Shown piece after piece: positions 15,290 to 30,049 of a DNA stretch of 32,617 nt. The position numbers were made by a program, and so were the translations under genes. The notes under the pieces are model-generated. The model did no database searches, was not told where the DNA came from, and saw only the letters and a program-made list of their open reading frames with translations. The stretch's first letter is position 1, and each line of letters opens with the position of its first letter. This DNA is from a virus. The DNA is taken from positions 1 to 32,617 of the IMG/VR virus record IMGVR_UViG_3300042691_013694, one strand, 5' to 3'.

Positions 15290-16246
15290 ATGAAAATTGG
15301 AATGATTGGTATAGTAAACAACTTAAGCACAAGGCTTAGTTCACATAATGCAGGATGGACTTACGTAAGTAGATCTGCGTTAGAAACGTATTTTAATACT
15401 AAAGTAGAAATATTAGATAATTCTATTGACTATCAAAACTATGATGTATTAATAATTAACGAAGGTGTAAATTATAAAGAAAATGTATTTAACTTTTTTG
15501 GAGGTGTACAAGATAAACAAATAGATTCTTTAACAAGATTTGCTAATTTTAAAAGAAAAGTGTACTGTGTTAATACTCATATTAATTATAACATATTAAT
15601 TGCTAAAAGAAAAGAATTAAAAGATTTGCAATTAACTTTTAATATACCAGAAGTAATTGATCTTAGTAAAGTTTCTAGCAAATTAGTATTAGGTGATAGC
15701 CACTCATTATCTGCTTATCAAAAAGGATATGCAATTAGTAGAAATGATGGAAAGACTTTGCATGGTTTTTTAAAGATAGGTATTAAAAACTTTATAGAAA
15801 AAAACGTAGACACTCTTGTTTTTTATGCTGGTAATATTGACATTCGATTCCACTTACACAAGTTTGGAAAAGATGGAATTGATAAATTATTAAAAGAATT
15901 AGAAAATCAATTGCAAGAATTAAATTTAAAATCAATAACTTTAGTTCAGCTTATTCCAATTGAAGATGAATCAAGAAAATTACCTGGAACTGGTTTATAC
16001 AAAGGCGAACCGTTTTATGGATCTAGACAAATAAGGTCAGAATTAGTTTTATATTTTAATCAAAAACTTTATGACATGTGCGCACCTTATTATAATTATA
16101 AGTGCTTATCTTGGAATTTTGACTATAACAATTTTTCTTTTGATTGCATGGAAGCAAAGCAATCTGTTCATATTAGACCTTCTTATTATTTAAACCTTAA
16201 AGACTACATAAATGGAAATGATCAACACTTTTTTGGAGTATTATAA
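15290..16246 (+). CDS. SGNH/GDSL-like protein in base-modification cassette
   Basis: 318 residues. The N-terminal half (about 1-135) looks like an alpha/beta substrate-binding domain. From about residue 139 the sequence has SGNH-type blocks: VLGDSHSLSAYQKGY (block I, GDS with the candidate nucleophile Ser), FYAGNIDIRFHLHKFG (block III, G-N), and a late SVHIRPSYY His that could complete the site. SGNH enzymes are esterases or acyltransferases. It starts the run of genes 15290-18948 that all fit base hypermodification, so it may add or trim a group on the modified base. I do not know a characterised member in this role. Confidence 0.62.
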   Translation: MKIGMIGIVNNLSTRLSSHNAGWTYVSRSALETYFNTKVEILDNSIDYQNYDVLIINEGVNYKENVFNFFGGVQDKQIDSLTRFANFKRKVYCVNTHINYNILIAKRKELKDLQLTFNIPEVIDLSKVSSKLVLGDSHSLSAYQKGYAISRNDGKTLHGFLKIGIKNFIEKNVDTLVFYAGNIDIRFHLHKFGKDGIDKLLKELENQLQELNLKSITLVQLIPIEDESRKLPGTGLYKGEPFYGSRQIRSELVLYFNQKLYDMCAPYYNYKCLSWNFDYNNFSFDCMEAKQSVHIRPSYYLNLKDYINGNDQHFFGVL

Positions 16247-16256
16247 AAAAGCAAAA

Positions 16257-17123
16257 ATGATGCAAGAATTAAAATATGAAGGTGCATCATATACAAAACA
16301 AGATATTAACGATGACCTTATTTGGCATATACCAATTTATGATGTTGTTAATAGAAAATATGCAGCATTTAGTTCTTTATTAGAAGCTATTGTTCACAAA
16401 GAAAAAGATCCTAAAGGTAATGGAATTAATTTTTTAAGAAATATACCTAAAGAAGATTTTATTGATCTTTGTTATTTATTTAGACTATGTGGTTCAGGAA
16501 TTAATTATAAACCTAAAGTAAAAATTAATGATGAACCATGGGGTACCCACGGTTTTGGTAACTTTTGGGTAGTAGAGTTACTTAGAAACGATATAAATAA
16601 TAGAAATGAATGGTTGCATTTTTTACCTTATTCTGATAAATTTTGTGATGTAAAAGGATATTTACTTCCAATGATTAAAGGTGGTTTAAAAAAATTTATT
16701 TTAAATGAATCAATATACTTAATTCATGATATTAAAAATTTTATTAAAAAATCTGGAAAGGTAGGAATAAAAGATATAGTTGATCATGGAAATAAATATC
16801 TTAAAGAAAAAGGATACATGAGACAAAATTTTGTTCTTACTGCATTTGCAATGGATTTGGCAGAATATTTCCCTGATCTAGTAGATAGAGATTCAGATGT
16901 TTACATTGGTTCTAATGCAAAAAAATGCTTGAAACTAATTTTACCAAATATGAAACACGATGAAGCGCTACGTTATCTTTGTGATATTACTGGCAATTTT
17001 TCTAAACCATATGATATGGAAGATGTTGCATGTGATTTTATAAGATACATGGACAACTTTCAATCTAATGAACATATTTTAATGAATAACAATAAAACTT
17101 ATACAAACAATGTTCATAAATAA
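16257..17123 (+). CDS. Putative base hypermodification enzyme, aGPT-Pplase-like
   Basis: 288 residues from the ATG at 16257, which follows an A-rich tract after the upstream stop (the in-frame ATG at 16212 would overlap by 35 bases). The layout resembles the alpha-glutamyl/putrescinyl thymine pyrophosphorylase (aGPT-Pplase) family, helix-hairpin-helix glycosylase-fold proteins. Key matches are HGFGNFWVVELLRND, then a long helical region with VDRDSDVYIGSNAKKCLKLI, and the C-terminal DMEDVACDFIRYM. The last resembles the family's E..LC.f.rY motif. These enzymes are thought to displace pyrophosphate from an activated hydroxymethyl base in phage DNA and attach an amino acid or amine. The family match is by eye; the neighbours strongly support it. 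Confidence 0.66.
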   Translation: MMQELKYEGASYTKQDINDDLIWHIPIYDVVNRKYAAFSSLLEAIVHKEKDPKGNGINFLRNIPKEDFIDLCYLFRLCGSGINYKPKVKINDEPWGTHGFGNFWVVELLRNDINNRNEWLHFLPYSDKFCDVKGYLLPMIKGGLKKFILNESIYLIHDIKNFIKKSGKVGIKDIVDHGNKYLKEKGYMRQNFVLTAFAMDLAEYFPDLVDRDSDVYIGSNAKKCLKLILPNMKHDEALRYLCDITGNFSKPYDMEDVACDFIRYMDNFQSNEHILMNNNKTYTNNVHK

Positions 17124-18012
17124 GCAAATAGGAAAACAAAATAATAATCTTAAAGATATGAATCTTAATGATTATTTAGATATAACTAAATCTTTTCAAT
17201 CTTCTTTTGACGATTTTGTTATAAAAGATGTTAACGGATTTAAAGTTATAGATGAATCTGTTGTATGTGCTGTAGGATATAAAGCAAGAGCAGGCGAATT
17301 TTTAATACAGCAATTAGTTGAACAAGGTATAAAAGAAGTAGTTTATGTTCAACCTAGGATTGGTTTTGCAGGAATATCTTTATCTTGGCTTTGCAAAAAA
17401 TATGGACTTGCATTAACACTTATTATGCCATCGTCAAAAGAAGTAAGCGATCATCAAGCTTTATGTATAGAATATGGTGCTAAGGTATTATTTGTAAGAA
17501 TAGCGGCAATGCCTAATGCTAATTTAATAGCAAAAAAATACGCAGAAAAAACAGGTTCATATTTTATTCCTCTTGGTTTAAATCACCCTTATGTTATAGC
17601 AGCAGGAGTAAGACTAATTCATGATTTTTTTTTAGAAATAGAAAAGCCTAAAACAATGTGGTCCGTTATATCTACAGGAGTTTTAGCAAGAAGTTTACAG
17701 ATAGCATTGCCTAATACAGAGTTTAAGGCTGTTGCTGTATCTAGGAATATACAGCAAGGTGAATTAGGGTCAGCAGAATTTTTTACTTATCATAAACCAT
17801 TTGAATCTAAATCAGATCTTATACCAATTGAATTTAACTGTGAAAATAGTTATGATGCAAAAGGTTGGGATTATATTAATAAATTTGGTAAATTTGGTGA
17901 CTGGTTCTTTAACGTAGCCGGAGAAGCAGAAAAACCTACTATTGAAAAAAGATTAATTAACTCTTATCGTGATTGGAACGACTTAAAAGACTTTACTAAC
18001 TATGGAATTTAA
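17110..18012 (+). CDS. PLP-dependent enzyme, tryptophan-synthase-beta fold
   Basis: 300 residues. Residues about 50-200 follow fold-type-II PLP enzymes (TrpB, threonine dehydratase): AVGYKARAGEFLI with Lys58 as the probable Schiff-base lysine, YVQPRIGFAGISLSWLCKKYGLALTLIMP in place of the usual SSGNHG loop, and EYGAKVLFV. VISTGVLARSLQIALP follows, then AVAVSRN. The altered loop indicates a substrate unlike free serine or threonine. Related PLP enzymes accompany aGPT-Pplase genes in hypermodified phages, where PLP enzymes decarboxylate or trim the added amino acid on DNA. Start at 17110 overlaps the previous gene by 14 bases; ATG 17158 is an alternative. Confidence 0.76.
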   Translation: MFINKQIGKQNNNLKDMNLNDYLDITKSFQSSFDDFVIKDVNGFKVIDESVVCAVGYKARAGEFLIQQLVEQGIKEVVYVQPRIGFAGISLSWLCKKYGLALTLIMPSSKEVSDHQALCIEYGAKVLFVRIAAMPNANLIAKKYAEKTGSYFIPLGLNHPYVIAAGVRLIHDFFLEIEKPKTMWSVISTGVLARSLQIALPNTEFKAVAVSRNIQQGELGSAEFFTYHKPFESKSDLIPIEFNCENSYDAKGWDYINKFGKFGDWFFNVAGEAEKPTIEKRLINSYRDWNDLKDFTNYGI

Positions 18013-18649
18013 TACAGCAAACGATGTGTTTGAATTTTACTACAAAAAAATATCAAACGAAGGAATTGATTTTAGTAATACTAAAGCATTATTTAATCAA
18101 GGTTTTACTATACTAAAACCTATGGATAATAACATAACCGCAGATTTTAGAAATTGGAATTTAAAATATGCAAAAGCAGAATACGATTGGTATACATCAG
18201 GAGACCGTAATATAAAAGCACTAGGTGACATATATGGAAAAATACCAAGTATTTGGTTAAAGATGGCAGATGAAAACGGAAATGTAAATTCTAATTACGG
18301 TTGGCAATGGAAAAGAAATAACCAATTATCAAATGTTATTAATGTTTTAAAGACAAACAAAGGATCAAGACAAGCGGCAATTAGTATTTATGACGCTAAA
18401 GAAATAAATACTTATAAATATGATACGCCTTGCACTTATGCAGTACAGTTTACGATAATTGATAATAAATTAAACATGTCTGTTCTTATGAGGTCTAATG
18501 ATCTGTGGTTTGGTTTCTGCAATGATCAATATTGTTTCTCTAGACTTCAATGGTATGTCTCTAATGAATTAGGAATAAGCATTGGTAGTTATTACCATTA
18601 TGCTCACAATTTACATATTTACAATAACTTTTTAAACATACAAAAATGA
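18002..18649 (+). CDS. Thymidylate-synthase-like dNMP hydroxymethylase
   Basis: 215 residues. Thymidylate synthase fold landmarks in order: Glu60 in KAEYDWYTSGDRNI (matches E..WF..G), Tyr99-Gly100-Trp103 in NYGWQW, nucleophile Cys144 in DTPCTYAVQF, RSND (164-167), and His205/Tyr207 in HIY. At the position of E. coli TS Asn177, eight residues after the conserved Asp, this protein has Asp175 (GFCND). T4 dCMP hydroxymethylase also has Asp there, and an Asn-to-Asp change shifts TS toward dCMP. It would make 5-hydroxymethyl-dCMP or -dUMP from methylene-tetrahydrofolate as feedstock for the cassette. It is shorter than TS (about 264 residues). Confidence 0.82.
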   Translation: MEFNTANDVFEFYYKKISNEGIDFSNTKALFNQGFTILKPMDNNITADFRNWNLKYAKAEYDWYTSGDRNIKALGDIYGKIPSIWLKMADENGNVNSNYGWQWKRNNQLSNVINVLKTNKGSRQAAISIYDAKEINTYKYDTPCTYAVQFTIIDNKLNMSVLMRSNDLWFGFCNDQYCFSRLQWYVSNELGISIGSYYHYAHNLHIYNNFLNIQK

Positions 18650-18948
18650 AATTAACAAACGAATTTGATTCAGTTAGAACATGGGCAAATAATAAAGGTA
18701 TACTTGCCAAAGGTGATCCAAAAACACAGTTCATAAAATTATTAGAAGAGGTAGGAGAATTATCTAGATCAATATTAAAAAATAACGATACAGAATTTAT
18801 AGATGCTATAGGCGATTGTGTTATTGTTTTAACAAACCTTGCTGCAATAAAAGGTTACACTATCGAAGAATGTATAAATTCCGCTTATCAAGAAATAAAA
18901 AGCAGAACAGGTAAAATGGAAAATGGAACTTTTGTAAAAGATAAATAA
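18646..18948 (+). CDS. MazG-like nucleotide pyrophosphohydrolase
   Basis: 100 residues, the size of a single MazG-type domain. The metal-binding acidic motif is KLLEEVGELS (Glu34, Glu35, Glu38), followed by FIDAIGDCVIVLTNLAA (Asp53, Asp57). These enzymes hydrolyse dNTPs to dNMP and pyrophosphate. Next to a nucleotide hydroxymethylase it would remove the unmodified dNTP or supply the dNMP substrate. The 4-base ATGA overlap with the hydroxymethylase gene indicates coupled expression. Confidence 0.9.
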   Translation: MKLTNEFDSVRTWANNKGILAKGDPKTQFIKLLEEVGELSRSILKNNDTEFIDAIGDCVIVLTNLAAIKGYTIEECINSAYQEIKSRTGKMENGTFVKDK

Positions 18949-24051: not shown

Positions 24052-25115
24052 TAATATACGCACGATCTCCTTACCTTATTGAGATTAATGAAGCAGCACA
24101 AGTAGGAAGTAAAATTGAGATATTTCTTTGGAATACTCCTAATTCTATTCCTGCAACTCCAATTATACTTTCAAAGAAGGTAGCATCTAATGAACAAAGA
24201 TCTACGATATACAATATATCACCATACATAAGAGAATACATAGATAATATTGTTTCAAGTGATGGTACTAATAATCAATGGTGTAATGTTTCCATAAAAC
24301 GATACAAAGAAACATCAGCAGGTGCATACACTTTAGTTGATACGACAACTTATGCTGGAGTTGATGGGTACACTAATTACAATGGCGGATATAATCAAAC
24401 GAATCCATTAAACAATTATTGCTTATTGGCTGATAATACTAAAGAAATACAATATAATTTAGGAAGTATTCCTTTTGTAAATGTTTTAATTAATAATGCT
24501 TTAGGCGATAAATTAGATGTTGAATATAAGGATAAAAGTAATAACAATGTAATTACAAATTCAATATTTGGGACTGGAGTTGCAGCAGGTAAATACATGT
24601 ACAAAGTACCATTAACCACATCAAGTGCTAATTACAATAATGGAAATATTACAACTTTAAAATATTTTGTAGGTGCAACATTAACATACTCATCAATCTT
24701 TAATGTAACTCCTATTTGTGAAAATAAATATACACCAGTGCAATGTTCATTTATTAATCGTTTTGGTGGATGGCAGTTTCTTACATTCTTTAAAGCACAG
24801 ACAAATCAATTAACGGTATCAAGTACGATGTACAACTTGCTTCCAAGTAATTTTAACTATAATGCCTACAAAGGACAATTAAAAGCATTTAATTTTAATG
24901 CAAGGCAAACAGTTACTCTAAACACAGGTTTTGTTCCAGAGAATTATTCCGATCTAATTCAAGATTTGATGTTAAGTGAAGTTGTACTATTAGACAACAA
25001 GCCTGTAACCTTAAAGACAAATCAAACCAATTTAAAGACAACTATTCAAGATAAGAATATTAATTATACTATGGATTTTGAGTATGCCTATAATTTATTA
25101 AACAATGTAATATGA
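24048..25115 (+). CDS. Tail structural protein, distal-tail or baseplate candidate
   Basis: 355 residues, rich in Asn, Thr and Tyr, with a regular beta pattern. Blocks: YARSPYLIEINEAAQVGSKIEIFLW at the start, INRFGGWQFLTFFKA around residue 240, and a C-terminal part with VTLNTGFVPENYSDLIQDLMLSEVVLLDN. These resemble tail-tip proteins of Bacteroidetes phages found just before a very large tail protein, as here. The 4-base ATGA overlap ties it to the next gene. Exact role (distal tail or baseplate hub) cannot be decided. Confidence 0.65.
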   Translation: MIIYARSPYLIEINEAAQVGSKIEIFLWNTPNSIPATPIILSKKVASNEQRSTIYNISPYIREYIDNIVSSDGTNNQWCNVSIKRYKETSAGAYTLVDTTTYAGVDGYTNYNGGYNQTNPLNNYCLLADNTKEIQYNLGSIPFVNVLINNALGDKLDVEYKDKSNNNVITNSIFGTGVAAGKYMYKVPLTTSSANYNNGNITTLKYFVGATLTYSSIFNVTPICENKYTPVQCSFINRFGGWQFLTFFKAQTNQLTVSSTMYNLLPSNFNYNAYKGQLKAFNFNARQTVTLNTGFVPENYSDLIQDLMLSEVVLLDNKPVTLKTNQTNLKTTIQDKNINYTMDFEYAYNLLNNVI

Positions 25116-28100
25116 TTAATGTAAGTATTTATATTTATGGCGAAGATGGCTTGGCAAAAAGACTTGAATTATTTGAGGATGAAAACATTTCAGTCAATAG
25201 TTCAATCCAAAACATTAATGATATATCAAAAGTCTTTACCGATTTCTCACAATCGTTTACGGTGCCTGCCACGAAGAACAACAATATAATATTTAAACAT
25301 TGGTATGAAAATAGTTTAGATTCTGGATTTAATGCCACTAAAAGAAAAGATGCTTACATTGAGATTGACACATTGCCATTTAGAAAAGGAAAGATTCAAT
25401 TAGAAAAAGCCAGTTACAAGAAAGGCGATATTGATAACTACACTTTGACTTTCTTTGGATCTCTAATATCATTAAAAGATAAATTCAATAATCGGTTTTT
25501 AAGGGACTTTGATTATTCAGCATACAACTTTACCTATTCGGGAATTATAGTTAAAAATAGGGTAACGAGTGGTGTTGCAAACGATATTAAATTTCCTTTA
25601 ATATCTTCAATAAATGTTTGGCAATATAATACTAATGGAAATAGCCAAAGCAATTGGGACATACAAAAAAATTCACATCCAATTTCTTATTTAGATTTAT
25701 TTCCTGCAATGCGAGTAAGCAAAATTTTAGATTCTATTGCAACTCAAATTGGAATAACATTAAGTGGCTCATTTTTAAGCAACACAAAATTTTTAAATGC
25801 TTATTTATGGTTAAAAAATACAGATACATTTGTTCAGAAGGGATCTGATAATAAAATACTATTCCAATCTAAAACAAGTACTACTGGAACATCAAGCATC
25901 TTTGATTTATCTACTAATGCTTTAAATTTTACTCAACCTATTTTGCCAGCTTATGTAAGTAAAAATTATATTGATATAGATTTTACAAGTGGCGATGGTA
26001 TTGCGTTTAATTTTTCAGTTTACAAAAATGGAATTAAAATAACAGAACAATCAGCACTTACAACTCCATCAGGAACTCCAATAAGATTAGATATTGCTTT
26101 TGTTGATTCAGGTGCCTACACTTTTTTTATATCCTCAACATCAGCACTAACATTTACATCTGTTTATACTTTTGAAATTAATAGTGGATCAGGTGCAAGC
26201 ATTGATGTAACTGCAACACAAAGCATAGCACAAACAACAACCACTACTTTAAATGTTGGCGATTATATGCCAGAACTTAAAGCAGAAGATTTTTTTAGTG
26301 GTTTATTAAAAATGTTTAATCTTACTTGTTATTCTAACGATGGAATCACTTATTATGTTGAGCAATTAGAGGATTGGTATTCAGCAGGTCAAACCTATGA
26401 TATATCAGAATATTGTCAAACAGATGAAATAGATTTAGAGAGGGTAAAACCATACAAGACTATTAATTTCAAATATGAGGAATGTGAAAACTTATTAGCA
26501 ACAAGATTTTTATCACAATCAGATATACCTTATGGAGATTTAAAATATCAAGTTGATAATGATGGCGAAGAATATTCAATTGAATTACCATTCGAGAATA
26601 TGCCATTTACTAAATTTTCAAATACAAATTTACAGGTAGGTTATTCAATTAAAGCAGATTTAACTGCATACATTCCAAAGCCTGTTATCCTTTACGACTA
26701 TGGTGTAATTCAAACATTATCAGGTGGTCAGCATTTTCATTTTTTTGATGGTACACATAGTGCAACCGTTACAACTTATAATTTATTTGGACAAGATACT
26801 TTAGTGTCATCTGTTGTTAATACAATTAATTGGGGAGCAGAGCAGTCAACTTTCACAAATAAAATTGAGCCAAATTCATTATTTCAAAATTACTATTCAG
26901 CATATCTTACAAACACATTTAATCAAAAAGCAAGGCTAATGAAGATTAAAACAATTTTGCCAATATTTCTATTAAGTAAACTTGCCTTAAATGACAAGAT
27001 AGTAATTAGAGATAAACGGTACATTATTAATTCTTACCAAACAGAATTAACCACAGGTGAAACAAGTTTTGAGTTGATGTCTGATTTTCGAAATATAACT
27101 TTAGGAACTACCACAACTACAACTACGGCTGCACCAACAACTACTACTTTAGCACCAACGACAACCATAGCGCCAACAACTACGTTAGCGCCAACGACAA
27201 CTATTGCACCGACAACTACTGCAACACCAACAACATATTACAGGCTTGATTCTTGTTCAGCTGGTTATGGTCAATTGTACACTACAATAGTACCTAATTT
27301 AGTAAGTCAAAGATACATTGATTCGGTTACTCAAATATTCTATGTTTGGGATAATACCACGACTACCGCTCCCGGCACAATAGGCACTAATATTCAGTTA
27401 GTATTTGCGCAACAAAATTGCCCACCAGCACCAACAACGGTTGCACCAACAACAACTACTTTAGCACCTGTAAACTTTACAATTTCAAATGCTTGTTCGG
27501 GTGGATCTGGTACGGTCACAATCAATTCATTTAGCGGTGGAAGTGGTACTTATCAAGCATCTGATACAGTTTACACATCACAAGTAAATGCATTCATAGG
27601 TAATTTTGTTAGTGCTACTGCTCCTACAAATTATAATAGTGTTGCAGATGGTACTTGGTGGATTGCTTTAAGGGATGCCAATAATACAGGTAATGCAATT
27701 GCTAAATCAATTGTTGTAAGTTGTGCTACGACAACGGCTGCGCCAACAACAACTACAATTCAAGTTGTTTGGTATAGGCTTTTATCTTGCATAAACGCAG
27801 ATACATTGTTTTCGCAATCTTATAACATTGGCACATTTAATTTGAATGATCGTGTAACATTTGGTGGCGCATTCTTTACGGTTGAAGAAGTTAGATTTAA
27901 TCAGCCAGCAGGTAGTTTAATTCCAATTACTGCAACAGGATTAACAGGATGCCCAACTACAACTGCGCCACCAACAACCATTCCACCAACAACCGTTCCA
28001 CCAACGACTGCTGCACCTGTATTTACATATTTAAGATATGATGTTGATGGTAATTGTGGCACATCAAATCCTATTCCTTTCTTTGCGACAACTAATTATG

Positions 28101-28483
28101 CAAATGGATTTTATTTTATAAATGGGGATGGAATTTTAAGATATTTAAATTCGGCTTCACATACTAATTTTACTAATCAAATTAATAGTATTGCAAATGG
28201 TTCTTGTACTCCACCAACAACTATTGCTCCAACAACGGTTGCACCAACAACAACTACTGCGACACCTACGACTACTGCTACACCACCTAATTGTCAACAA
28301 TATACTTTAGCTAATAATGATGAGTTTTCGGATTTTTACGATTTCCAATCTTGTAATGGTACTCAAAATAATAATGTAGAATTACAAGGAGGTGGTGGTA
28401 GTGTCACAATTTGTGCAAGGATAGGGACGGTAGTTGCTGGAGGCGCAATAACGGTTACTGGTCCACAAGGAACTTGCGTGTAA
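25112..28483 (+). CDS. Large tail protein with mucin-like linkers and Cys-bearing adhesin domains
   Basis: 1123 residues, the longest gene. Residues 1 to about 660 form the tail-attached part: VFTDFSQSFTVPATKNNNIIF near the start and KIVIRDKRYIINSYQTELTTGETSFELM at its end are typical of Bacteroidetes phage tail-tip proteins. From about residue 665 to the end there are five Thr/Pro/Ala linkers (about 666-708, 772-786, 873-883, 947-969, 1033-1058). They separate five small beta-rich modules, most with a Cys near each end. This beads-on-stalk design suggests host-surface binding. Two glycosyltransferase-like genes follow directly, so the Thr-rich linkers may be O-glycosylated; this is inference. 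Confidence 0.8.
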   Translation: MINVSIYIYGEDGLAKRLELFEDENISVNSSIQNINDISKVFTDFSQSFTVPATKNNNIIFKHWYENSLDSGFNATKRKDAYIEIDTLPFRKGKIQLEKASYKKGDIDNYTLTFFGSLISLKDKFNNRFLRDFDYSAYNFTYSGIIVKNRVTSGVANDIKFPLISSINVWQYNTNGNSQSNWDIQKNSHPISYLDLFPAMRVSKILDSIATQIGITLSGSFLSNTKFLNAYLWLKNTDTFVQKGSDNKILFQSKTSTTGTSSIFDLSTNALNFTQPILPAYVSKNYIDIDFTSGDGIAFNFSVYKNGIKITEQSALTTPSGTPIRLDIAFVDSGAYTFFISSTSALTFTSVYTFEINSGSGASIDVTATQSIAQTTTTTLNVGDYMPELKAEDFFSGLLKMFNLTCYSNDGITYYVEQLEDWYSAGQTYDISEYCQTDEIDLERVKPYKTINFKYEECENLLATRFLSQSDIPYGDLKYQVDNDGEEYSIELPFENMPFTKFSNTNLQVGYSIKADLTAYIPKPVILYDYGVIQTLSGGQHFHFFDGTHSATVTTYNLFGQDTLVSSVVNTINWGAEQSTFTNKIEPNSLFQNYYSAYLTNTFNQKARLMKIKTILPIFLLSKLALNDKIVIRDKRYIINSYQTELTTGETSFELMSDFRNITLGTTTTTTTAAPTTTTLAPTTTIAPTTTLAPTTTIAPTTTATPTTYYRLDSCSAGYGQLYTTIVPNLVSQRYIDSVTQIFYVWDNTTTTAPGTIGTNIQLVFAQQNCPPAPTTVAPTTTTLAPVNFTISNACSGGSGTVTINSFSGGSGTYQASDTVYTSQVNAFIGNFVSATAPTNYNSVADGTWWIALRDANNTGNAIAKSIVVSCATTTAAPTTTTIQVVWYRLLSCINADTLFSQSYNIGTFNLNDRVTFGGAFFTVEEVRFNQPAGSLIPITATGLTGCPTTTAPPTTIPPTTVPPTTAAPVFTYLRYDVDGNCGTSNPIPFFATTNYANGFYFINGDGILRYLNSASHTNFTNQINSIANGSCTPPTTIAPTTVAPTTTTATPTTTATPPNCQQYTLANNDEFSDFYDFQSCNGTQNNNVELQGGGGSVTICARIGTVVAGGAITVTGPQGTCV
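27108..28286 (+). repeat. Mucin-like Thr/Pro/Ala linker series in tail adhesin
   Basis: Five blocks of APTTT-type units occur at about 27108-27235, 27427-27470, 27729-27759, 27952-28018 and 28211-28286. All four Thr codons are used in changing order, so the protein repeat is much cleaner than the DNA repeat. Confidence 0.85.
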
Positions 28484-28484
28484 T

Positions 28485-29408
28485 ATGAGATATATTTGTT
28501 GTCAACCTGCGAATGATTATTATTTATGGCAAATAGAAACGGTCATAAATAATTTTATGTCGCATGGGATTAACCCTAATCACATAGATATTGTATTAGG
28601 TTATAATAATGAAGATTTAAGCAAGTGGAGAATTTTACAACAACATCATAATACAATAAGGTTTTTCTTTTATAAAGACACAAGAGAAAATAATAGTTAT
28701 GCACCATCTATTTATTTTAACTTAATGAAGCAACATGTTGCATCTGATTACATATTAAAAGATGAAGTTTTATTCTTACATGATTCCGACATAGTATTTA
28801 CAGGAACTCCAGATTATTCGCAATTTGAAAGAGGTAAAATTTGGTATTTAAGCGACACGAATAGTTATATTAATTATGATTATGTAATGTCTAAAGGAAA
28901 TGACCTTTTAATTGATATGTGCAGAATTGTTGGTATTGATTGCTTAATCCCTAAGTTAATGAACGATCATAGCGGAGGCGCACAATACATAGTAAAAGGA
29001 ACGGATTATAATTTTTGGGATAAAGTTGAAAAAGATTCTATTAGTTTATATCAATATTTTGTAAACAAAGAACCTTATTATGTACCTAAATATGAAAACG
29101 ATTATCCGATACAGAAATGGACTGCTGGTATGTGGTCATTGCTTTACAATGCGTGGTTTTTTGGACATCAAACAAAGGTAGTTAAGGAATTAGATTTTGG
29201 GTGGTCTACAAACGATATATCGGATACTATTAAACATAAGATTTTACATAACGCTGGAGTGACTGATTCAAAAAGTGGATTGTTTTATAAGGGAGAATAT
29301 GCAAATAAATTACCTTACAATACAAATTTAGATTTAGATAAAAATAAAAGCAGTTACTATTATTATAACGAAGTGCAAAAAGCAGGTTTAAATTCTCCAT
29401 TATTATGA
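28485..29408 (+). CDS. GT-A-like glycosyltransferase
   Basis: 307 residues. The N-terminal half has an alpha/beta pattern with HIDIVLGYNN, then VLFLHDSDIVFTGTPDY. Asp100-Ser-Asp102 would be the DxD metal and sugar-nucleotide site of GT-A enzymes. Further on, SGGAQYIVKG (about 163-172) and KILHNAG near residue 250 resemble acceptor and C-terminal His motifs of protein glycosyltransferases. No membrane segment, so it acts in the cytoplasm, where virions assemble. It begins one base after the adhesin stop. Target inferred: virion protein, possibly the Thr-rich linkers. A lipopolysaccharide or DNA sugar transferase is less likely by context. Confidence 0.7.
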   Translation: MRYICCQPANDYYLWQIETVINNFMSHGINPNHIDIVLGYNNEDLSKWRILQQHHNTIRFFFYKDTRENNSYAPSIYFNLMKQHVASDYILKDEVLFLHDSDIVFTGTPDYSQFERGKIWYLSDTNSYINYDYVMSKGNDLLIDMCRIVGIDCLIPKLMNDHSGGAQYIVKGTDYNFWDKVEKDSISLYQYFVNKEPYYVPKYENDYPIQKWTAGMWSLLYNAWFFGHQTKVVKELDFGWSTNDISDTIKHKILHNAGVTDSKSGLFYKGEYANKLPYNTNLDLDKNKSSYYYYNEVQKAGLNSPLL

Positions 29409-30049
29409 TTGAAATAGTATTGCCAACTATGTGGAAGTCTGATAAAATCTTTGAAATGATTCATAGATATATTGGCAATCCTAATATTTATCGGATTCAT
29501 ATAATAGATAATACAAATGAGTTTGATGTTTATTATCCATTAGGCATAAATTCTAAAAAAGTAAAAGTTTATTCTTTTGAAGAAAATATCTATGTCAATC
29601 CTGCTTGGAATTATGGTGTTAGCAAATGTAAAGAAGATTCAATTATTTGTCTTGCAAATGATGACATTGAATTTAACACAGAAATATTCGATTTTATAAT
29701 TAGTCATAAATCTGAATTAGGAATTATAGGAATGGACAACGAAAACTATGATATAAATATTAGTAAAGAAAAAAAGATAAATAGTACAAATTGCCAAACC
29801 TACGGATGGGGATGCTTAATATTTATATTGAAAAAAGATTGGGTTAATATACCTAATGCACTAAAGGTATTTTATGGTGACACATTTATGTTTCACAATG
29901 TAAAAGTATTATGTAAAAAATTAAGTGGCTTTTTTATAGATACAAATATGTCAACTACAAGCTCATCAAGTTTTGTAATGGATATACATAAAAGCGATAT
30001 TGATAATTGGGAATTAATAGGGAATAAATCTTCTTTAAACCTAAATTAA
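29405..30049 (+). CDS. GT2-like glycosyltransferase
   Basis: 214 residues. Family-2-type features: an N-terminal strand (IEIVLPTMWKSDKIFEMI), IHIIDNTNEF, then NPAWNYGVSKCKEDSIICLANDDIEF. The last phrase holds the NDD form of the DxD motif (Asn85-Asp87), and the N.G...a pattern precedes it. GDTFMFHNVK near 153-162 could be the catalytic ED-like region. It is short for GT2 but keeps the core. It overlaps the upstream GT by 4 bases, so the two are co-expressed and may act in sequence to build a short glycan. Confidence 0.74.
   Translation: MIEIVLPTMWKSDKIFEMIHRYIGNPNIYRIHIIDNTNEFDVYYPLGINSKKVKVYSFEENIYVNPAWNYGVSKCKEDSIICLANDDIEFNTEIFDFIISHKSELGIIGMDNENYDINISKEKKINSTNCQTYGWGCLIFILKKDWVNIPNALKVFYGDTFMFHNVKVLCKKLSGFFIDTNMSTTSSSSFVMDIHKSDIDNWELIGNKSSLNLN

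Follow-up and report, generated by a model that had tools for sequence, protein, structure and literature searches.

A six-gene cassette predicted to hypermodify cytosine in a phage of apparent flavobacterial type

In the thymine hypermodification pathways of phages M6 and ViI, which lead to 5-(2-aminoethyl)-2'-deoxyuridine (5-NedU) and 5-(2-aminoethoxy)methyl-2'-deoxyuridine (5-NeOmdU), the enzymes dependent on pyridoxal phosphate (PLP) decarboxylate the amino acid that has been added to the base. The M6 cassette runs from the amino acid:DNA transferase (ADDT) gene gp51 directly into gp52, followed by genes for radical SAM, 5-hydroxymethyldeoxyuridine (5-hmdU) DNA kinase, HMUDK_hel, Nmad5 and thymidylate synthase (TS), and the same gene set, PLP enzyme included, is listed for the M6-like phage SN1 (PMC9476957). 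As to cytosine, a genome-phenome study found that an aspartate at E. coli position 177 marks the TS proteins of modified-cytosine contigs, in which TS also co-occurs with a pyrophosphohydrolase (PMC8670742), and the 5-carboxymethylcytosine and CmoY glycine amide of Synechococcus phage S-B43 involve a carboxy-S-adenosylmethionine (Cx-SAM) carboxymethyltransferase and an ATP-dependent ligase (PMC12783734). Here we describe a locus in the viral record IMGVR_UViG_3300042691_013694, which was analysed as the complete IMG/VR record of 32,617 bases and is referred to as the window. At the core of this locus stands a trio of genes, encoding an SGNH-type protein, a protein resembling amino acid:DNA transferases and a fold-type-II PLP enzyme, together with genes for a TS-like enzyme, a MazG-type NTP pyrophosphohydrolase and a DUF6378 protein. 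The original prediction took the first five of these for a base hypermodification cassette, and this outline holds, still as a prediction, in the gene identities, the folds and the obligate linkage. In our estimate, there is about an even chance that the locus encodes a pathway of cytosine hypermodification, in which the SGNH enzyme would activate 5-hydroxymethylcytosine (5hmC), an amino acid would then be attached by substitution, and the PLP enzyme would trim the product.

The five open reading frames (ORFs) noted originally were confirmed as adjacent, all on the plus strand and with neighbours overlapping or nearly gapless, and their order is conserved in scores of viral contigs. Between the window and one of its relatives (L002), the six cassette genes exhibit dN/dS values of 0.05-0.14, indicating purifying selection, and therefore encode functional proteins; combined with the conserved gene order, this puts the cassette well beyond chance. 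We examined 84 loci carrying the transferase-like gene (114 were found in one scan), where all counts refer to loci with room for the neighbour in question. Namely, the SGNH gene lies upstream of the transferase-like gene in 76/76 loci and the PLP gene downstream in 81/81, a dCMP-type TS is within reach in all 55 and MazG in 53 of these, DUF6378 is found in each of the 60 loci with more than 2 kb of upstream sequence, and the genes overlap or sit a few bases apart in most of the 84. In one contig (L089), the SGNH and transferase-like proteins even form a single ORF of 639 amino acids, a natural fusion. Conversely, most TS loci contain TS and MazG without the trio, with MazG adjoining or lying near TS in nearly all of them, and in two loci (L020 and L021; TS 97% identical) TS comes straight after DUF6378, with the SGNH, transferase-like and PLP genes missing as a block. 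In other words, the trio behaves like a single functional unit which needs a dCMP-type TS, and not vice versa, and the unit takes in DUF6378 too. The distance matrices of the different families are correlated (Mantel r 0.28-0.61, exceeding all 2000 permutations), and correlations within the trio do not consistently exceed those with TS or DUF6378, so that the whole unit appears to be co-inherited.

The identity of the target base is indicated by the TS-like enzyme, whose assignment to the TS family is upheld by Pfam (Table 1), but whose original framing in terms of thymidine is not. In particular, its motif FGFCND aligns with FGFRND of the T4 dCMP hydroxymethylase (PDB 1b49), and its Asp175 corresponds to the dCMP-determining Asp179 of T4 gp42 (E. 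coli position 177), with an aspartate at this position and the catalytic Cys144 both kept in 74/74 relatives. The protein thus combines the TS fold, the catalytic cysteine and the aspartate of the T4 gp42-like dCMP hydroxymethylases; it shares the TS fold with the dUMP-specific enzymes of the M6 and ViI pathway, but not their asparagine at E. coli position 177. Its nearest matches among isolates, at 46% identity, come from Bacteroides phages and are annotated as deoxycytidylate hydroxymethyltransferases. Since the enzyme is of the dCMP type, the base is predicted to be cytosine, not thymine, and it is the dCTP pool that MazG is proposed to trim. One could also argue that the TS-like enzyme is a dCMP methylase producing 5-methylcytosine, and that the trio modifies the nucleotide pool, the cell surface or virion glycans. 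The profile scores of the enzyme are indeed near-equal for thymidylate synthase (96.5 bits) and the T4 dCMP hydroxymethylase (95.1 bits), SGNH enzymes often act on glycans, and two genes of unknown function follow a large Thr/Pro-rich ORF elsewhere in the window. However, the N-terminal domain of the SGNH protein, which resembles a DNA glucosyltransferase, the DNA-acting transferase/glycosylase fold of its neighbour and the presence of TS at 55/55 loci tie the trio to a hydroxymethylated base, and we deem such a scenario improbable.

The transferase-like protein was modelled with AlphaFold2 (AF2) on the basis of 17 diverse relatives, with a mean pLDDT of 82. The two top VIA matches are both to gp46/PUGT of phage PaMx11, a 5-phosphomethyldeoxyuridine (5-PmdU) glycinyltransferase (Z 10.9 and 9.8, root-mean-square deviation 3.6-3.8 over 203-204 residues), the best solved structure being 8z2n (Z 10.9, deviation 3.6, 204 residues aligned). 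Next come AGOG, DUF2419, OGG1 and AlkA, with HhH-type 8-oxoguanine glycosylases among them, and when Foldseek is used alone, glycosylases rank first, with weak E-values. In BFVD, the model matches proteins named amino acid:DNA transferase (A0A6J5L8T5 with E 8e-10 and a TM-score of 0.74; another with 6e-4), as well as one named aGPT-Pplase clade 1 (E 0.056). At the level of fold, therefore, the protein stays in the aGPT-PPlase/HhH-glycosylase group to which it had been assigned, and its predicted structure exhibits the HhH-glycosylase-like fold of the transferases. By sequence, Pfam, NCBIfam, PHROGs, PDB sequences and tblastn of isolate phages returned nothing useful, a search of the window with PF18724 (ADDT) was empty with M6 positive in the same search, and the protein was not found in the 84,980 bacterial and archaeal genomes searched. 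More generally, of the original assignments those of TS, PALP and MazG are backed by Pfam, while SGNH and aGPT find no backing there and are supported by predicted structure. Judging from the model, the protein adopts the amino acid:DNA transferase fold and probably works like one.

The AF2 model of the SGNH protein (pLDDT 82) contains an SGNH/GDSL domain at residues ~123-306, which in VIA is similar to SGNH/GDSL esterases (Z 12.4) and to the O-acetyltransferase OatA (Z 11.0). Ser137 (GDSH), Asn182 (GNID) and His294 (SVH) are invariant in all 77 members, so that both the fold and the Ser, Asn and His of blocks I, III and V are those of the SGNH/GDSL superfamily. What is more, residues 1 to ~100 resemble the N-domain of the T4 beta-glucosyltransferase (BGT), including an NFFGG motif. 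Namely, T4 BGT scores 18.8 bits, as compared with 8.0 or less for 2000 shuffled BGT sequences and up to 4000 other ORFs, hhalign gives E 3e-6 for the N-domain against T4 BGT, and 4 of 17 members match PF09198, at best with E 0.0024. The idea that the protein is itself a glucosyltransferase was dropped, as the likeness is limited to the N-domain and the rest is SGNH; the whole GT-B protein of T4 BGT (PF09198), with its UDP-glucose domain, is not present. As modelled, the protein is best read as one in which a BGT-like half engages hydroxymethylcytosine and an acyl-handling half replaces the sugar-nucleotide half. The original prediction also had this protein as SGNH-like, which stands, and gave it a peripheral acyl step, which does not: because of the linkage at 76/76 loci, the fusion to the transferase in one contig and the BGT-like N-domain, it is probably central to the pathway.

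Relatives of the SGNH protein are found in the isolate records of 38 Aeromonas, 3 Tenacibaculum and 2 Stenotrophomonas phages, and the T4-like Aeromonas phages among these also carry a second, divergent TS-fold gene. No isolate with the whole trio was present in the collection searched. In 19 Aeromonas phages (44RR-type), the SGNH protein continues into an additional domain that weakly matches HMUDK_hel (E 0.0036 and 4e-4); in 44RR2.8t (L101:6381-10361), this fusion has 795 amino acids and adjoins a sodium:solute symporter gene. The transferase profile has no match in the C-terminal domain of the 44RR protein, and the latter therefore backs a similar arrangement only. In Aeromonas phage 25 (L104:3776-7047), on the other hand, the SGNH homologue is preceded by genes for a UDP-galactopyranose mutase and for an uncharacterised protein of 358 amino acids (phrog_14998), a context which suggests a sugar-bearing 5hmC there.

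Could the SGNH enzyme act last in the same 5hmC pathway, capping the product with an acyl group or removing one, while the transferase works on an intermediate phosphorylated by a host kinase or by one not recognised here? Proteins with an SGNH fold are often esterases or O-acetyltransferases, the SGNH protein of phage 25 is encoded near a sugar gene and carries no fused domain like the transferase, and in Tenacibaculum phage PTm1 the SGNH protein is present with the other two proteins not detected, so that it can evidently act without this transferase. Nonetheless, SGNH and the transferase always occur together in the family studied here, in one case as a single protein, a pattern that speaks for a shared step more than for a late cap. 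Moreover, no match to the 5-hmdU DNA kinase (PF18748) came up in the window or in seven relatives, whose records of 30-35 kb may be incomplete (the M6 control gave 1e-19). Consequently, we consider a late role for SGNH somewhat unlikely. The window and its seven relatives likewise have no radical SAM protein and no match to the carbamoyltransferase family (PF02543). With the kinase and radical SAM of M6 not found, and with TS of the dCMP type, the original likening of the locus to the ViI and M6 sets does not carry through.

The best family for the PLP protein is phrog_7093 (E 3.9e-23), to which M6 gp52 also belongs (2e-159). Its Schiff-base Lys58 (GYKAR) and a C-terminal YDxK motif are invariant in 73/73 members and align with the proteins of M6 (gp52), R6L and Mae-JY30, the match to Vi01_182 being looser. 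It is the common family and the shared motif that establish kinship with M6 gp52, and not direct BLAST, which is weak, as is the profile-profile comparison with that single sequence. The fold-type-II assignment made originally is thus correct, and the locus has the PLP enzyme of the M6 gp52 group that is part of the M6 and ViI pathway. In Erythrobacter phage vB_EliS_R6L, a related domain is inserted in a ParB/N6-N4 DNA methyltransferase protein, gp1 (L099:6801-9230), and in Microcystis phage Mae-JY30 (L100) the PLP enzyme is encoded by a separate gene following the ParB/methyltransferase gene, arrangements which suggest another DNA modification that uses PLP. Alternatively, the PLP enzyme might make or edit a free donor (e.g. 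D-serine, 2,3-diaminopropionate or ammonia) instead of acting on DNA, with the remaining pathway unchanged. Enzymes of this fold usually act on free Ser, Thr or Cys, and its nearest cellular relatives are cysteine synthase and threonine dehydratase. That said, the closest group is the phage family around M6 gp52, the YDxK motif is common to the window protein and the M6 gp52/R6L-type proteins, and the embedding of the R6L domain in a DNA methyltransferase protein suggests action on DNA, all of which makes a free donor unlikely in our view.

The pathway that we propose would proceed as follows. The dCMP-type TS enzyme would convert dCMP to 5-hydroxymethyl-dCMP, as its residues suggest, while MazG, perhaps joined by DUF6378, would shape the dCTP pool. 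The host polymerase would presumably build this product into DNA as 5hmC, as no phage DNA polymerase was recognised. The SGNH protein would then bind 5hmC via its BGT-like N-domain and O-acylate the hydroxymethyl group, an activation that is the kinase's job in M6 and ViI. Subsequently, the transferase-like enzyme would displace the leaving group with an amino acid whose alpha-amine stays free, e.g. an O-linked serine; here the substitution is suggested by the fold, and the amino acid is our conjecture. Finally, the fold-II PLP enzyme would decarboxylate or trim this amino acid to give an amine-bearing cytosine, and the benefit, by analogy, would probably be escape from restriction. We infer the order of these steps, the acyl activation, the amino acid, the PLP reaction and the protection. 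Esterification by SGNH is proposed because a leaving group is needed and SGNH is the only obligate partner of unknown role, and a side-chain linkage, like the O-serine of ViI, is favoured since PLP editing needs a free alpha-amine. That the route is independent of a kinase, with an SGNH-made 5hmC ester as the leaving group for the transferase and an amine-bearing cytosine not yet described as the outcome of PLP trimming, is a possibility that we put forward tentatively.

Several points weigh against this proposal. The TS-like enzyme could methylate instead of hydroxymethylate, and the PLP domain also accompanies DNA methyltransferases in phages without TS, and its substrate could thus be something other than a hydroxymethyl-derived base. 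In block V of the SGNH protein, the Asp of DxxH is absent and the sequence reads QSVH, with Gln in 76 of 77 members, and the domain could function as a hydrolase or at the end of the pathway. The transferase-like protein is tied to ADDT by fold only, where middling Z values are, as VIA cautions, common for helical proteins; PF18724 remained unmatched in a Pfam search of 17 members with E up to 10, and hhalign against the M6 gp51 (ADDT) family did no better than with decoys. Given this failed profile comparison and the fact that by sequence it falls in no listed family, we do not file the protein in PF18724. Lastly, activation of the base could still fall to a host kinase or to one that escaped recognition, and an end present in the Nonlabens phage P12024S may be missing from the record.

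Table 1. Genes of the cassette in the window, with the evidence for each assignment
Feature	Length	Coordinates	Strand	Support
DUF6378 protein (PF19905)	88 aa	15022..15288	+	Pfam E 8.8e-14
SGNH-type protein	318 aa	15290..16246	+	predicted structure; no Pfam support for window protein
amino acid:DNA transferase-like protein (aGPT-PPlase/HhH-glycosylase fold)	~301 aa	16218..17123	+	predicted structure
fold-type-II PLP enzyme, M6 gp52/phrog_7093 group	300 aa	17110..18012	+	Pfam PALP E 4.7e-12
dCMP-type TS-fold enzyme (deoxycytidylate hydroxymethylase-like)	215 aa	18002..18649	+	Pfam PF00303 E 1.7e-25
MazG-type NTP pyrophosphohydrolase	100 aa	18646..18948	+	PF03819 E 8.6e-7; phrog_1992/715 MazG-like
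ORF coordinates		15290-16246, 16212/16257-17123, 17110-18012, 18002-18649, 18646-18948	all +	

As regards the gene layout (Table 1), the conserved N-terminus of the transferase-like family (MIDQF...) lines up with the second Met of the window ORF, and the gene therefore most likely starts at 16218, and not at 16257 as first predicted. The role of DUF6378 is possibly related to the dNTP pool; by eye, its residues resemble an all-alpha NTP pyrophosphohydrolase. PADLOC returned no defence-system match. The large ORF at 25112-28483 is rich in Thr/Pro repeats (PTTTxAPTTT), with a 42-nt unit occurring 15 times, and the two genes directly after it (28485-30049) have sequences suggestive of glycosyltransferases, with nothing significant in Pfam for the first.

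The window terminase is closest to that of the Nonlabens phages P12024S/L (62% identity; portal 36%), whose host belongs to the Flavobacteriaceae and whose backbone genes come in a similar order (ERF, VRR-NUC, sigma-like, terminase). This supports a phage of Flavobacteriaceae type, in keeping with the Bacteroidetes phage originally predicted. In contrast to the window, P12024S is annotated with neither TS nor MazG nor the trio at the corresponding place. The minus-strand gene block at the right end of P12024S was not seen in the window, which therefore may be slightly incomplete. We also note that OQ791282.1 (Shigella phage Henu10) has the same terminase coordinates and identity as Riemerella phage PT15, and that its host label may be wrong.

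If our proposal is correct, the amino-acid hypermodification chemistry of thymine extends to cytosine by way of another activation step, in small flavobacterial-type phages that occur in many metagenomes. It would provide a new modified nucleoside, DNA-acting enzymes as tools, a cytosine counterpart to ViI and M6, and a clear prediction concerning host restriction. The proposal lends itself to direct testing, given the obligate linkage of the three genes, the naturally fused protein and a close relative devoid of the trio. We found no report of the trio or the gene combination in the literature, where our coverage of papers on thymidine hypermodification was incomplete, in agreement with the originally suggested novelty of the composition.

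How does the locus compare with the systems already described? With M6 and ViI it shares a TS-family enzyme, the ADDT fold and a PLP enzyme of the M6 gp52 group beside the transferase; it differs in its dCMP-type TS, in an added obligate SGNH protein, in a transferase outside PF18724 by sequence, and in that no 5-hmdU kinase, radical SAM or HMUDK_hel was found. PaMx11 gp46/PUGT (PDB 8z2n, 8z2m) has the overall fold of the window transferase at 7% identity, and its substrate is phosphomethyl-uracil, for which no kinase was found here. Like that of S-B43, the proposed product would be a cytosine carrying an amino acid, yet none of the six cassette proteins is assigned to the carboxymethyltransferase or ligase families. 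ORF233c of Aeromonas phage 44RR2.8t is homologous to the SGNH protein over ~300 residues (31% identity), but its fused C-terminal domain, with the weak HMUDK_hel match, is not detectably homologous to the window transferase, and no such PLP enzyme was found in the 44RR2.8t genome. The T4 BGT pathway likewise has a dCMP hydroxymethylase, and T4 BGT resembles the ~100 N-terminal residues of the SGNH protein, with an SGNH domain standing in the window where T4 has the sugar-nucleotide half. Finally, the 5hmC carbamoyltransferase systems (MetaGPA, PMC8670742) also combine an Asp177-type TS and a pyrophosphohydrolase with an enzyme that then acts on the 5hmC hydroxyl, and in the window it is the trio that takes the place of the carbamoyltransferase.

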